Shown here one piece after another: positions 26,121-31,203 of a DNA stretch of 34,515 nucleotides. The notes under the pieces were generated by a model, which saw only the letters and a list, made by a program, of their open reading frames with translations, ran no database searches and was not told the origin of the DNA. Where the stretch lies: assembly GCA_020428025.1 (NCBI GenBank), contig JAGQNO010000005.1, forward strand, positions 1 to 34,515. The letters run 5' to 3'. How positions within the stretch are numbered: the stretch's first letter is position 1; every line of letters starts with the position of its first letter. Made by a program: the position numbers and the translations under genes. Source of the DNA: Candidatus Saccharimonadota bacterium (lineage in GTDB: Bacteria > Patescibacteriota > Saccharimonadia > Saccharimonadales > UBA4665).

Positions 26121-27725
26121 GTGGCGGACAAATCCACGAAATATATCTTTGTGACTGGTGGTGTGCTTTCTGGACTAGGGAAGGGCATCGCTGCCGCCTC
26201 CATTGCCAACCTCTTAAAAGCCCGCGGGCTATCTGTTAACCTTCAAAAATGCGACCCCTACTTAAATGTTGATGCTGGCCTCTTAAACCCGCGCGAGCAT
26301 GGCGAGTGCTTTGTAACAAAAGACGGTGCAGAAACAGACCTAGACCTTGGTCACTACGAGCGCTTTATTGACCAAGACCTAACCCAGGTTAGTAGCCTTA
26401 TGTCTGGCCGCGTTCTACTTGAGGTCATAGAAGATGAGCGTCATGGTCGCTACCAGGGCCGCAGCGTCCAAGTTGTGCCGCAAGTCACAGGCAAAATTCA
26501 GGACTATATCCAAGAAGCCGGCAAGGGCTTTGATGTCCATATTGTAGAAATTGGCGGCACGGTGGGGGATTATGAATCACTGAGCTTTATAGAGGCAATT
26601 CGCGAATTTAGTCAGCGCGTGGGCCGCGAGAATTGCTGCTATATCCACCTAGTCTATCTGCCATATCTGGGCGCTAGCCAAGAAACCAAGACTAAGCCGG
26701 CTCAAAATTCTGTTAGAGATTTGCGCGGCTTGGGTATTCAGCCAGATGTTCTTATGGCTCGTTCAGAGGAAATGCCGCCAGAAAACGTTAAAGACAAGCT
26801 GAGCCAATTCTGTGGTGTGGCGCCAGAGGCAATCGCGCTTCTACCTAACGCCAAGAGCATCTATCAGGTGCCGCTCACACTAGAGGACGAGGGCATTGTA
26901 GATGTTATTGCAAGCAAGCTAGATTTGCCAACTGGCAAGCCTGACCTAAAAGACTGGCGTGAGATGGTTAGCCGTGCTACCACCAAATACGATAAAACAG
27001 TCACTATCGGAATTGTAGCTAAATACATGGACAACGCAGACACCTACCTCTGTGTCTTTGAAGCTCTGAAGGCTGCAGCATGGTGGAACGATGTAAACAT
27101 TGACATCCAGTGGATTGATGCCGCCGGCCTAGAAGACCAGGCTACACTAGATTTCAGTAAATACGATGGCATTGTGGTGCCGGGCGGCTTTGGCACCCGT
27201 GGCGTAGAGGGCAAAATAAAAGCTGCGACGCTGGCGCTAGAATCAGAATTACCTTATTTGGGCCTCTGTTATGGCCTGCAAATTGCAGTTATTGCGGCGG
27301 CACGCAAATCCGGCCTAAAAGATGCTAACACAACAGAAATTGATCCTAAAACTAAAGATCCAGTTATTACCACCATGGCGGGCCAGGAGGGCAAGGAGAG
27401 CACTGGCGGCACCATGCGGCTGGGCAATTACAACTGTCATCTGGAGCCCAGTAGCAAAGCGGCAGCGTTGTACGGCGCGGCAGATATTGTAGAGCGCCAC
27501 CGTCACCGCTACGAATGCAATCCCAAGTACGTAGATCAGTATGAGAGCTGGGGCATATCCGCCGTTGGCCACAATCCAGAGACCAACCTAGTAGAAGTCA
27601 TAGAGGCCAAAAACCATCCGTTCTTTGTTGCCAGTCAGTTCCACCCAGAACTAAAGGGTCGGCCGGTGCGGGCGCACCCCTTATTTGATGGACTCATAAA
27701 AGCCGCCAAAAAGCGTGCCAAGTAG
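26121..27725 (+). CDS. pyrG: CTP synthase
   Basis: 534 residues from GTG 26121. It converts UTP to CTP with glutamine and ATP. The N-terminal synthetase domain (about 1-270) has KYIFVTGGVLSGLGKG, CDPYLNVDAG and EIGGTVGDYES. The class I glutamine amidotransferase domain (about 290-534) has the oxyanion GGFGTRG, the nucleophile Cys in GLCYGLQIAV (usually CLGMQ) and the His-Glu pair in SQFHPELKGRP. A good AGAGGAG site precedes it. Pyrimidine-pathway neighbours are absent, so it may work on salvaged nucleotides, as is common in reduced genomes. Confidence 0.97.
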   Translation: MADKSTKYIFVTGGVLSGLGKGIAAASIANLLKARGLSVNLQKCDPYLNVDAGLLNPREHGECFVTKDGAETDLDLGHYERFIDQDLTQVSSLMSGRVLLEVIEDERHGRYQGRSVQVVPQVTGKIQDYIQEAGKGFDVHIVEIGGTVGDYESLSFIEAIREFSQRVGRENCCYIHLVYLPYLGASQETKTKPAQNSVRDLRGLGIQPDVLMARSEEMPPENVKDKLSQFCGVAPEAIALLPNAKSIYQVPLTLEDEGIVDVIASKLDLPTGKPDLKDWREMVSRATTKYDKTVTIGIVAKYMDNADTYLCVFEALKAAAWWNDVNIDIQWIDAAGLEDQATLDFSKYDGIVVPGGFGTRGVEGKIKAATLALESELPYLGLCYGLQIAVIAAARKSGLKDANTTEIDPKTKDPVITTMAGQEGKESTGGTMRLGNYNCHLEPSSKAAALYGAADIVERHRHRYECNPKYVDQYESWGISAVGHNPETNLVEVIEAKNHPFFVASQFHPELKGRPVRAHPLFDGLIKAAKKRAK

Positions 27726-27754
27726 TTGCCAACAAGGGTAATCTGGGTTACCAT
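27726..27754 (+). promoter_or_regulatory. Promoter of the first response-regulator gene
   Basis: TTGCCA (27726-27731), 17-nt spacer, TACCAT (27749-27754), ending 8 nt before the ATG. GGTAA and TTACC (27737-27752) form an inverted repeat inside the spacer, a possible operator or the pyrG terminator stem. Confidence 0.6.
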
Positions 27755-27762
27755 AAGCGTAT

Positions 27763-28143
27763 ATGGACAACAATAACAAACGAATTTTATTAGTAGAAGA
27801 CGACGATGCGCTAGCTAATGTGTACCAGATGCGCCTAGAGGCAGAGGGCTTTACGGTGCGCCGCGTGGCAAACGGGGAAGAGGCTTTAGCAGCGGCCTTA
27901 GCTTTTAAGCCAGACCTGGTACTGTTAGATGTCATGATGCCTAAAGTCAGTGGCTACGATGTGCTAGATATCCTTAGAAACACCCCAGAAACCGCCAATC
28001 TTAAAGTTATTATGCTGACTGCTCTGAGTCAGGAAAGTGACAAGCAACGCGCAGAAGCCCTTGGGGTAGATGACTACATGGTTAAGTCGCAAGTTGTCAT
28101 TGCTGATGTTGTAGATCGCATTCGACACCATCTTGGCATATAA
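27763..28143 (+). CDS. Single-domain response regulator (REC only)
   Basis: 126 residues, one receiver domain and nothing else. Acidic pocket D13/D14 (VEDDDA), phosphoacceptor D56 in LVLLDVMMP, T86 in IMLTALS and K108 in YMVKSQ are all present, so it should accept phosphate. With no output domain it must act by protein contact, as CheY does, or in a phosphorelay. It is followed at once by a Crp/Fnr gene; its stop TAA lies inside the -10 box of that gene. A CHASE kinase is encoded nearby on the other strand. Confidence 0.92.
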   Translation: MDNNNKRILLVEDDDALANVYQMRLEAEGFTVRRVANGEEALAAALAFKPDLVLLDVMMPKVSGYDVLDILRNTPETANLKVIMLTALSQESDKQRAEALGVDDYMVKSQVVIADVVDRIRHHLGI

Positions 28144-28144
28144 T
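28139..28144 (+). promoter_or_regulatory. -10 box of the Crp/Fnr gene (leaderless type)
   Basis: Perfect TATAAT ending 6 nt before the ATG at 28151; it contains the stop codon of the response-regulator gene. Confidence 0.6.
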
Positions 28145-28150
28145 AGCCCT

Positions 28151-28768
28151 ATGTCCGGGAGACTGAGGCCCATAAAAAAGGGTCAAATCATCTTATATCA
28201 GGGTGAAGCAGCATGGCAGATTCATCGTCTGGAGACTGGTTTGGTGCGCGCCTACAGTATTTTGCCTGGTGGCAATGAAGTTAACATTGCCCTGTTTGGC
28301 TCGGGTGACTTTTTTCCGGCAGAGGTCATGCACGAGTCCGCCCCGGCCACACTCTTTTATTACGAAGCCATGACGGATTGCCATGCAGAAATTATCAGCC
28401 AAGCCGATTTTGCTGCCAGCCAAGCAGCGGACCCAAATGTTGCCGCCAGCACCGCTAAGCGCTACGTGGGCGCTCTGCTGCACATCAACGCCATGGGGCA
28501 GGCCACGGCGTATCACAAGATAGGCCACACCCTTAGATACTTGGCTATGCGTTTTGGTAAGCCACTGACTGGCCCAGGGTTTGTTAGAATTGTGCCGCGC
28601 CTGACGCAGCAAGATTTAGCCAACTTGTGTGGCATTTCCAGAGAAACAGCCAGCGTGGAGCTGGGCAAGCTAAAAGAAAGCGGTGCCGTAACAGAGAAGA
28701 GCAAGCAATATTCTGTGCACATGCCGTCGCTTAACAAGCTAATGGGCGATAATATTACGCTGGAGTAG
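28151..28768 (+). CDS. Crp/Fnr family transcriptional regulator
   Basis: 205 residues from ATG 28151; an in-frame TTG at 28133 lies upstream of the promoter and is rejected. The N-terminal cyclic-nucleotide-binding-like domain (about 1-120) has KKGQIILYQGE, LETGLVRAYSILPGGNEVNIALFGSGDFFP. A dimerisation helix follows. The C-terminal winged helix has LTQQDLANLCGISRETASVELGKLKESGAV, the Crp/Fnr helix-turn-helix. The cNMP phosphate-binding motif (GExxxx-RxA) is not clear, and no Fe-S cysteine set is seen, so the signal is unknown. The end overlaps the convergent response-regulator gene by 14 nt. Confidence 0.9.
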   Translation: MSGRLRPIKKGQIILYQGEAAWQIHRLETGLVRAYSILPGGNEVNIALFGSGDFFPAEVMHESAPATLFYYEAMTDCHAEIISQADFAASQAADPNVAASTAKRYVGALLHINAMGQATAYHKIGHTLRYLAMRFGKPLTGPGFVRIVPRLTQQDLANLCGISRETASVELGKLKESGAVTEKSKQYSVHMPSLNKLMGDNITLE

Positions 28769-29132
28769 GAGTGGCCGCTAGAGCGTCCTCTATGACGCGT
28801 ACCAGCTCTGTAGGCGTGGCCCAAGCCTTGAGCATATAACGGCTGGCGCCTAGGTCCATAACTTCTTGAATTTCTGACTTGCTGTCTAGGTTGCTAAATA
28901 CAATAATAGGCACGTGGCCGGCATTGTTAAACTGCTGCAAAAATTCTTTGCCGCCTAAGACTGGCATAAGTAAATCTAACAGAATGATGTCTGGCTGCAC
29001 CGTTTTTAATAAATCTAGAGCCTGCTGGCCGTCAAATGCGGAGCTGACCTGGTAGCCATTTTTAGTCAGCATTATGGTGAATGCATCGTTTAGGGCGTTG
29101 TCATCCTCTACTAGTAAAACTGTTTTACTCAT
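28755..29132 (-). CDS. Single-domain response regulator (REC only), downstream of the kinase
   Basis: 125 residues on the minus strand. Receiver domain with VEDDNA, D53 in IILLDLLMP, S80 in IVFSNLD and K102 in YMLKAW. There is no output domain. The gene follows the CHASE histidine kinase after 34 nt in the same direction and has its own -10 box. It is a likely phosphorylation target of that kinase. The Thr/Ser switch residue is Ser rather than Thr. Confidence 0.92.
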   Translation of the reverse strand: MSKTVLLVEDDNALNDAFTIMLTKNGYQVSSAFDGQQALDLLKTVQPDIILLDLLMPVLGGKEFLQQFNNAGHVPIIVFSNLDSKSEIQEVMDLGASRYMLKAWATPTELVRVIEDALAATPTPA

Positions 29133-29144
29133 ATTTCAGAAATA

Positions 29145-29150
29145 ATTGTA
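29145..29150 (-). promoter_or_regulatory. -10 box of the second response-regulator gene
   Basis: TACAAT on the minus strand, ending 12 nt before the ATG at 29132; would give a leader of only a few nucleotides. Confidence 0.45.
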
Positions 29151-29166
29151 ATGCTAACAGTGGTGA

Positions 29167-30948
29167 TTAATCTGTGAGCTGGGCCACATTTTGCTCTTTT
29201 GCCGATGTTTTTGGCAGCCGCAGCGTAAACAGGGCACCCTTGTCCGCCGAGGAAGCTACTTCTAAGGTGCCGCCGTGCGCTTCAGTAAGTACACGGGCCA
29301 AGTACAGACCCAGGCCGCTGCCGCCCTCTGATACTGACAAATCATTATGAATCCGACTAAATTTTTGGAACAGCTTGCCGTGGTCTTCTGGCGCAATGCC
29401 CACGCCCTCATCGCGGACGGTGAGCTCTACGTGATCAACTCGGCCTTGCAATTTTATCCAGACCGATGCGTTTGGATACGAGTATTTTACCGCGTTACTA
29501 ATTAAGTTTTCTGCTACCATGGCCAGGAGACGTTCGTCGCCAACCAAGGGGAGCTGTTTGCGGCCCTGTAGCTTGATATTGAGCTGTTTAGCTTTGGCGG
29601 CAGCGGTTAGATTAACGGTAGCGTTTTTAATTACGGCCGCAAAATCAAACTCTGTTTGCTGCAGGTTGAGCTGGCCTGCATCGGCCTTAGCCACGTAGAG
29701 TAGCTGATCAATAATTTCTAGCTGGCGATCATTGGCGGTAGCTGCTTTAGTAATGACCGAGTGCTGCTCTGGCTCTAAGTCGCCAAAATACCCGGCTTGC
29801 AACATGCCCAGGTACTGCTTAACACCGCTTGCTGGCGTGCGCAGTTGGTGACTGGCCAGCGCCAAAAGTTCATTGCGGGTGTCTTGAATTTCTGCGTCGT
29901 GCAGGTGCCGTAGGTAGGTCAAGCGCCGATCAATCAACAGATACACAAAGCCGCCCAGCAGCACACTAATGAGGCAGCCGCTAATAAACAGGCCACTGGG
30001 CGTTATCCAGCCTTGCTGGCTAGGGGTGCTAAATTGCTGCAGTTGCCAACGCCTATCTACGACTTGTAAATCCTTCTGGACGGCATCGCCTGTCTTGCCG
30101 GAGCGCGGAGTTGTGCTTTGGACCATGAGCTGGGGCTTGACGGTAATGTCCGTCAGCACGTATCCAGCGCCGACTTTTTGCAGGGCCTCTGCCCGCACCG
30201 ACATTATATCCGCCAACCTAAAGGCCATATATACATACCCAGTGATATTGGCTTGGCGATCTGCCAGCAAATCGTGCGGGCCCTCGTACAGCGGGTAGTA
30301 GAGCAATATACTTTTTGGCGGGTTAGATTTGTCCATATCTTGGCGTAGCACCACAGATGATGTCAGAGCAAACGTGCCGCTGTTCCGAGCAGCGGCCATG
30401 GCGGCGCTGCGGGCTGGATCGGTCTGCATATCAAAGCCAAAAGCAAGCTGGTTAACAACATCAAACGGCTCAATAAACGTAATAGGGGAGTAGCTGGCGC
30501 GTTCGCCGCTTGGGGTTATGGCAAAATCCGCAAAACCTTCTGCTTGGCGCTGGGCAATGTAGTCTGGCAGGGCATCGGCGTTGACGTGCTGCACATAGCC
30601 AATGGCCAGCGCTTTAGGGGCCCGCGCTTGAACCTGGCTGCTGTGGTAGAACGTTTGCCAGTCAGCCCTAGTCAGCCCCTGGCCGCCCTTAACGTTACTG
30701 ACGCTGGCAGCCGCCAACAGAATCTGCTCATAGTCTGCAATTTTTTGGTTGATATGTTCTGTGGTCAGCGCGAGTTGCTGCTGTTTAAAGTCGTTGTATT
30801 CCTGTGTGTGTTGCCGCTGAGTGGTAAAGGCGCTCAGGTAGCTGGCCAGCGAACCCAGTAGTACCAGCACCAGCGCCACCACAATTGCCATGACATGCAG
30901 GTCCTGCAACGACTGCTTCTTAGACCAAAACCGCCGGAAAATGTCCAT
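29167..30948 (-). CDS. CHASE-domain sensor histidine kinase
   Basis: 593 residues on the minus strand. Membrane segments at about 18-39 and 317-339 enclose an extracellular CHASE domain (about 60-300; GYVQHVNADALPDYI, SYSPITFIEPFDVVNQLAFGF split over residues 152-172). The cytoplasmic part has HisKA with H367 in ALASHQLRTPASG and a HATPase with ENLISNAVKYS (N box), VRDEGVGIAPED (G1) and GGSGLGLYLARV (G2). CHASE senses small extracellular molecules, for example cytokinin-like or peptide signals in other organisms. A REC-only regulator follows; there is no HAMP or PAS domain. It could sense a host-derived signal, which is speculation. Confidence 0.94.
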   Translation of the reverse strand: MDIFRRFWSKKQSLQDLHVMAIVVALVLVLLGSLASYLSAFTTQRQHTQEYNDFKQQQLALTTEHINQKIADYEQILLAAASVSNVKGGQGLTRADWQTFYHSSQVQARAPKALAIGYVQHVNADALPDYIAQRQAEGFADFAITPSGERASYSPITFIEPFDVVNQLAFGFDMQTDPARSAAMAAARNSGTFALTSSVVLRQDMDKSNPPKSILLYYPLYEGPHDLLADRQANITGYVYMAFRLADIMSVRAEALQKVGAGYVLTDITVKPQLMVQSTTPRSGKTGDAVQKDLQVVDRRWQLQQFSTPSQQGWITPSGLFISGCLISVLLGGFVYLLIDRRLTYLRHLHDAEIQDTRNELLALASHQLRTPASGVKQYLGMLQAGYFGDLEPEQHSVITKAATANDRQLEIIDQLLYVAKADAGQLNLQQTEFDFAAVIKNATVNLTAAAKAKQLNIKLQGRKQLPLVGDERLLAMVAENLISNAVKYSYPNASVWIKLQGRVDHVELTVRDEGVGIAPEDHGKLFQKFSRIHNDLSVSEGGSGLGLYLARVLTEAHGGTLEVASSADKGALFTLRLPKTSAKEQNVAQLTD

Positions 30949-30960: not shown

Positions 30961-31107
30961 CAGCCCTGAGGTGGCTCTGTCGATGTGTGGTCCAGCTCAC
31001 AAAAACGCTGTGCGCGATTTCATAGTTAACCAAGGCCTGACCGCGGTAAGCTGGGGCTAGTTCTTTAACAAAGAGGCAAGGAGAAATTAACAAAAGGGAG
31101 ATAAATT

Positions 31108-31203
31108 ATGAGCTACAACAACGAAGCTCTGGAAGCCCGCATATCGGCCTTTATGAGCCGCAAAGAGCGTGAGTTTCCGGAACTAACAGACGTCAGATTC
31201 TAG
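31108..31203 (+). CDS. 31-residue small ORF at the head of the GlsB-like operon
   Basis: MSYNNEALEARISAFMSRKE begins a hydrophilic 31-residue peptide ending in ...LTDVRF. AAAGGGAG lies 7 nt before the ATG, a strong ribosome-binding site, so it is probably translated. It may be a small protein or a regulatory leader peptide for the membrane genes downstream. The region 30961-31107 before it shows only a CCAGCT/AGCTGG inverted pair and a second AAGGAG-like site at 31078; no firm promoter was found. Confidence 0.55.
   Translation: MSYNNEALEARISAFMSRKEREFPELTDVRF

Follow-up and report, generated by a model that had tools for sequence, protein, structure and literature searches.

Classical two-component systems pair a sensor kinase with an OmpR-type regulator. 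The locus described here, which lies in a 34,515-nt stretch of a Candidatus Saccharimonadota genome (contig JAGQNO010000005.1; the whole stretch is referred to below as the window), resembles these systems in that a gene for a HisKA/HATPase kinase stands next to a gene for a receiver (REC) protein, which we call REC2. Unlike in the classical arrangement, however, this receiver has no DNA-binding domain, and the DNA-binding protein, a Crp/Fnr-type transcription factor (Crp for short), is encoded by a separate, convergent gene.

Control of a Crp-fold factor by a separate small protein has a precedent in cyanobacteria, where PipX binds the Crp-family factor NtcA, which also binds 2-oxoglutarate. 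The likeness holds to the extent that REC2 contacts Crp, as we infer below, and it has limits, in that PipX is no receiver and works without a kinase. CRP itself, with its consensus box TGTGA-N6-TCACA, and GlxR share the fold of the window's Crp, and boxes of this type are found in relatives of the window; unlike theirs, however, the phosphate-binding cassette of the window's Crp is replaced (Gly to Pro, with no Arg). As a stand-alone REC, REC2 is also reminiscent of the VemR-type receivers of Xanthomonas. VemR acts by binding other proteins: the part of PMC9218911 on which we draw describes interactions with HrpG and SirA, and names RpoN2 in a title in its reference list. VemR differs in being an orphan REC phosphorylated by CheA, and that part of the paper mentions no Crp partner gene (PMC9218911). 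Two-component systems are well known; what appears to be new here is that two distinct, genetically linked proteins serve as the receiver and the DNA-binding output, with a presumed physical link between them. We found no description of a kinase/REC2/Crp unit in the literature searched, which took in few subscription papers.

The kinase, REC2 and Crp genes form a conserved unit

In the window, the crp gene (positions 28151–28768, + strand; 205 amino acids from the ATG at 28151) and the rec2 gene (28755–29132, − strand; 125 amino acids) meet tail to tail, overlapping by 14 nt (28755–28768), and rec2 lies downstream of, and on the same strand as, the gene for a CHASE-HisKA-HATPase_c membrane sensor kinase (29167–30948, − strand; 593 amino acids). 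A second single-domain receiver, REC1 (27763–28143, + strand; 126 amino acids), is encoded in the same orientation as Crp and ends 7 nt before its start; an alternative Crp start, the in-frame TTG at 28133, would overlap it. An earlier, sequence-only reading of this DNA had described the same layout, with REC1 and Crp on one strand, REC2 and the kinase on the other and the 14-nt overlap between them, and our coordinates bear it out. It had also described both receivers as having intact phosphorylation residues and no output domain; we read the same residues in the sequences, and Pfam finds no second domain above its cut-off in either protein. Its further remark that the cluster lacks a DNA-binding response regulator holds as well, and such regulators exist elsewhere in the genome (a draft of 820 kb, with 142 contigs and 90% completeness). 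That genome has 11 receiver places, 8 HATPase_c places and one cNMP-type protein, which is the window's; among the eight other receiver proteins that were scanned, Trans_reg_C was present in three and LytTR in one.

Crp homologues are present in 193 of the 294 genomes of the order, which we take to be the one that contains the Saccharibacteria. We examined 120 such places together with the window's own, 121 loci in all, and counted a Crp as paired when a REC-only gene is convergent with it and lies no more than 400 nt from its end. By this definition 82 of the 121 are paired, and in 74 of these 82 a kinase gene stands behind the REC gene. The two convergent genes are typically very close (66 of the 82 pairs are within 40 nt and 38 overlap), although gaps of up to 331 nt occur. 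As the pyrG and S41 peptidase genes that flank the window's cluster recur at only 1 of the 121 loci, the triad does not reflect background synteny. The REC2 family of the order, defined by 109 matches of at least 155 bits (the lowest is 155.3, followed by a drop to 139.5), is a distinct one whose members mostly adjoin Crp: 93 of the 109 do so, 90 of them convergently and 3 co-directionally. The three co-directional loci come from one genus and have the order Crp, kinase, REC2 on a single strand (L086 and L131) or Crp, REC2 (L087); that the genes stayed together even though their orientation was altered supports their being a unit. On a tree of the Crp proteins, the pairing label changes 13 times, versus 32.9 in shuffles. 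The best named matches among 84,980 species show the same arrangement and belong mostly to Saccharibacteria records, with some labeled only "bacterium" and one Parcubacteria. For Crp homologues from outside the order, a receiver or kinase was found nearby in none of 19 cases within the stretch read around each, and another lineage of the phylum has one REC2-like gene paired with a kinase but no Crp. Gene-neighbor conservation thus strongly supports the kinase, REC2 and Crp as a unit, and their adjacency across the order suggests one signaling circuit in which DNA binding falls to a protein of its own.

Among the triads that we fetched, the nearest relative of the window's Crp, REC2 and kinase alike is locus L072 of genome G182, whereas the triad (L118) of G255, a genome of the same genus as the window's, is a different and more typical one. 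For this reason, the window's triad may have moved as a block. The triad of a named relative (L212) is more distant, with 38% identity to the window's kinase, 64% to its REC2 and 47% to its Crp.

A stand-alone receiver, varying sensors and an altered Crp cassette

REC1 and REC2 both match Response_reg in Pfam (E-values of 1.9e-23 and 3.4e-22 for the two receivers), and both retain the acidic pair, the phospho-accepting Asp, the Thr/Ser and the Lys. In an alignment of 82 REC2 sequences, E9, D10, D53 and K102 are invariant. The predicted structure of REC2 is a confident single chain with the REC fold (mean predicted local distance difference test score, pLDDT, of 93.6), which, together with the conserved residues and the lack of an output domain, identifies it as a single-domain response regulator.

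The kinase has the make-up of a HisKA-type sensor kinase (HisKA, E-value 3.7e-10; HATPase_c, 5.5e-28), and the His of its SHQLRTP motif is nearly invariant in a 73-row alignment. A CHASE domain (PF03924; residues 92–268, 148.6 bits, E-value 2.3e-43) lies N-terminal to the kinase core, with hydrophobic stretches visible in the sequence on its flanks. This input domain is confined to one part of the family: among the 73 triad kinases that were aligned, of 78 found, HATPase_c occurs in all 73 and HisKA in 72, with CHASE in 18 and PAS_9 in 50, so that most relatives have a PAS-type kinase at the same place. The sensor varies while REC2 and Crp persist.

The window's Crp contains both domains expected of a Crp/Fnr factor (HTH_Crp_2, PF13545, 3.1e-10; cNMP_binding, PF00027, 3.1e-09). 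Its AlphaFold2 model, again a confident single chain, has a pLDDT of 91.5, and the best Protein Data Bank matches found by Foldseek are GlxR, NtcA and MtbCRP, with NtcA chains including that of the PipX complex (2xko). Aligned with GlxR, however, its phosphate-binding cassette reads P-A in place of G-E and A-T in place of R-T. Pro takes the place of the cassette Gly in 79 of the 82 paired Crps, and no Arg is conserved in the cassette. We therefore reject an identity as CRP proper, that is, a cyclic AMP (cAMP)-binding protein with the G-E and R-S/T signature; the residue roles assumed here in part follow PMC12937710. Scanning for the cAMP cassette with a loose pattern gave no useful information. 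An identity as FNR was rejected as well: FNR requires N-terminal cysteines for its iron-sulfur (Fe-S) cluster, and the N-terminal region of the window's Crp has no Cys. Within the paired Crp family, the only column with more than 20% Cys is at position 72 of the trimmed protein. Since neither a cAMP nor an Fe-S site is apparent, and REC2 with its kinase is the sole partner that follows crp, the signal to which this Crp responds probably comes from elsewhere.

Candidate Crp boxes and the gene divergent from the kinase

Upstream of the triad crp genes, palindromic dyads of the Crp type recur: TGTAA-N6-TTACA at 7 loci and TGTGA-N6-TCACA at 5, whereas no dyad occurred at more than 3 in shuffled sequences. 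A weight matrix, trained on the same crp upstream regions that it was used to score, gave scores of at least 14 in 23 of the 82 regions (shuffles: mean 0.8, largest 3). At a cut-off of 7, 55 of the 82 regions scored above it versus 32.3 in the shuffles, and we therefore rely on higher cut-offs only. In 9 loci the boxes are in tandem with a spacing of 23 bp, compared with 2 or fewer loci for any other spacing. Boxes scoring at least 15 precede the kinase in 6 of 74 loci.

In the window, a Crp-type box, TGTGAGCTGGACCACA (30986–31001, − strand), precedes the kinase start by 37 nt, and boxes like it are found at a similar offset in both L072 and L212. Over the window's genome as a whole, the box pattern shows no enrichment (38 matches versus 52 for a reversed control), so we treat this box as a weak lead. 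The same count leaves a regulon of canonical boxes in that genome unsupported. The other candidate, a GGTAA-N6-TTACC dyad between pyrG and rec1 (27737–27752), is found once more in the genome; neither L212 nor L072 supports it as the Crp box of the window, and with one mismatch allowed it fits chance over the window.

Tandem boxes with the 23-bp spacing also precede other genes in relatives, although we claim no regulon. In L318 (genome G037), genes for a heliorhodopsin and a TetR protein diverge around a tandem Crp-type box, and in L336 and L340 genes for Crp paralogues diverge from genes for bacterial PH-domain (bPH_3) proteins, with tandem Crp-type boxes between them.

Divergent from the kinase in the window is a gene for a transglycosylase-associated protein (TAP; PF04226; 31249–31506, + strand), a candidate target of the circuit. 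Of 20 long-kinase loci, 12 have a TAP gene close to the triad, versus 3 of the 54 short-kinase loci. Between the kinase and TAP genes, the window has a 31-codon open frame, MSYNNEALEARISAFMSRKEREFPELTDVRF (31108–31203), and by-eye reading of the DNA of L212 and L072 shows frames that resemble it. In four loci of one genus (L194, L195, L196 and L198), REC2-kinase-REC2 clusters occur with a TAP gene, with Crp not nearby.

REC1 belongs with pyrG

Directly upstream of rec1, on the same strand, is pyrG (26121–27725), which, judging from its protein sequence, encodes CTP synthase. REC1 is far more conserved than the triad: an orthologue scoring at least 160 bits is present in 80 of 89 family genomes, including the window's, with 63–87% identity in the 79 of 88 others. 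pyrG adjoins rec1 on the same strand in 19 of the 20 loci that we read, again including the window (L362 is the exception), and among those 20 the window is the only one with Crp beside REC1. G182, which has the closest triad, carries REC1 on a separate contig, and in L212 the triad is present without REC1. The sequence-only reading had grouped all four genes together. Its association of the kinase, REC2 and Crp is conserved; the placing of REC1 beside Crp is not, and we reject REC1 as a part of the circuit because in the 19 other loci read its orthologues adjoin pyrG (18 of 19) and never Crp. The window thus joins two units, pyrG-REC1 and Crp/REC2/kinase.

Within the pyrG-REC1 pair itself (26121–28143), the identity of REC1 across genomes is high for a receiver protein, and we recognized no kinase in the short stretches read around it. 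Locus L004 encodes a 425-residue protein whose N-terminal receiver is 55% identical to REC1 and which has no other Pfam domain; its gene adjoins a kinase, and long proteins like it were found in many of the family genomes searched.

Possible wiring of the circuit

Our preferred interpretation is that the kinase, REC2 and Crp form one split two-component circuit in which phosphorylated REC2 gates Crp, and we give it roughly even chances. An external signal would reach the kinase by way of its CHASE domain, and the kinase would phosphorylate REC2, its operon partner. Phospho-REC2 would then alter the activity of the neighboring Crp, most simply by binding to it, and Crp would act at boxes of the TGTRA-N6-TYACA type at its own promoter, the kinase promoter or both, and probably also at the adjacent TAP gene. 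The mechanism suggested by the sequence-only reading, a phosphorylated receiver working by way of Crp/Fnr, therefore seems reasonable for REC2. We advance more tentatively, and at somewhat less than even chances, the broader proposal that this is an order-wide architecture of Saccharibacteria, in which the Crp/Fnr protein gave up small-molecule control and came to be gated by the phosphorylated stand-alone receiver of a convergent kinase operon, with CHASE and PAS sensors interchangeable on the same REC2-Crp output pair.

Several observations weigh against direct gating of Crp by REC2. At 33 of the 121 Crp loci neither partner is present even though the contig continues (the remaining 6 have a kinase alone or reach the contig end). 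Conversely, 16 of the 109 REC2 family members have no neighboring Crp (one is at a contig end; four are paired with a kinase alone, and REC2-kinase-REC2 clusters, from a few genomes, account for others), implying that REC2 need not have a Crp beside it in order to act. The pairwise distances of Crp, REC2 and kinase do correlate (r of 0.87 to 0.90, n = 74), but this comparison had no control gene and is not taken as proof, as the correlation may only reflect shared descent. No REC-Crp fusion was found among the open reading frames of the 121 loci. Judging from the aligned sequences, loss of the cassette is no mark of pairing, since Pro also occupies the cassette Gly position in 32 of 33 unpaired Crps; the loss is thus older than, or independent of, the pairing. 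Finally, the boxes lie mostly outside the large PAS-type branch, which has no clear box, and the window's own genome, as noted, shows no enrichment for them.

Among the other explanations, the strongest contender, although we think it unlikely, is a one-way link: Crp would set only its own transcription and that of the kinase-REC2 unit, phospho-REC2 would act elsewhere (for example, on a pilus or envelope protein), and the genetic linkage would stem from shared regulation. Boxes do precede crp in many loci and the kinase in some, and REC2-kinase units without Crp exist; however, strong boxes upstream of the kinase are confined to the six loci given above, and a regulatory site needs no tail-to-tail adjacency, yet the two genes end within 40 nt of each other in most pairs. 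The adjacency could itself be the mechanism, with convergent crp and kinase-rec2 transcripts repressing each other, by antisense pairing or collision, to form a switch. The frequency of overlapping and closely spaced pairs fits this idea, as does the crp-rec2 junction of the window, where we found no convincing terminator; we nevertheless consider it quite improbable, given that wide gaps and the three co-directional loci persist.

The two remaining explanations appear very unlikely. That the adjacency has no function, the genes having stayed in an ancient order by chance or traveled as a block, gains something from the window's triad, which differs from that of its genus-mate and is closest to that of G182; but the genes have been kept together across many families while their flanks changed, and the pairing label changes far less often on the Crp tree than in shuffles. 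Least probable of all is the full version of the sequence-only reading, in which both receivers feed Crp and REC1 is its co-transcribed partner. Its appeal comes from the orientation of rec1 and the 7 nt that separate it from crp in the window, whereas the orthologues of REC1 at the other loci read, the separate contig in G182 and the REC1-less triad of L212 all argue against it.

Significance for Saccharibacteria

The cells and genomes of Saccharibacteria are both small, several members live as parasites of other bacteria, and little is known of how they sense their hosts and surroundings. The order-wide sensor-receiver-regulator unit offers a definite candidate, open to experiment, for a route by which these organisms sense their environment. 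If REC2 controls Crp directly, two-component phosphorylation would here govern a Crp/Fnr protein by way of a separate receiver.

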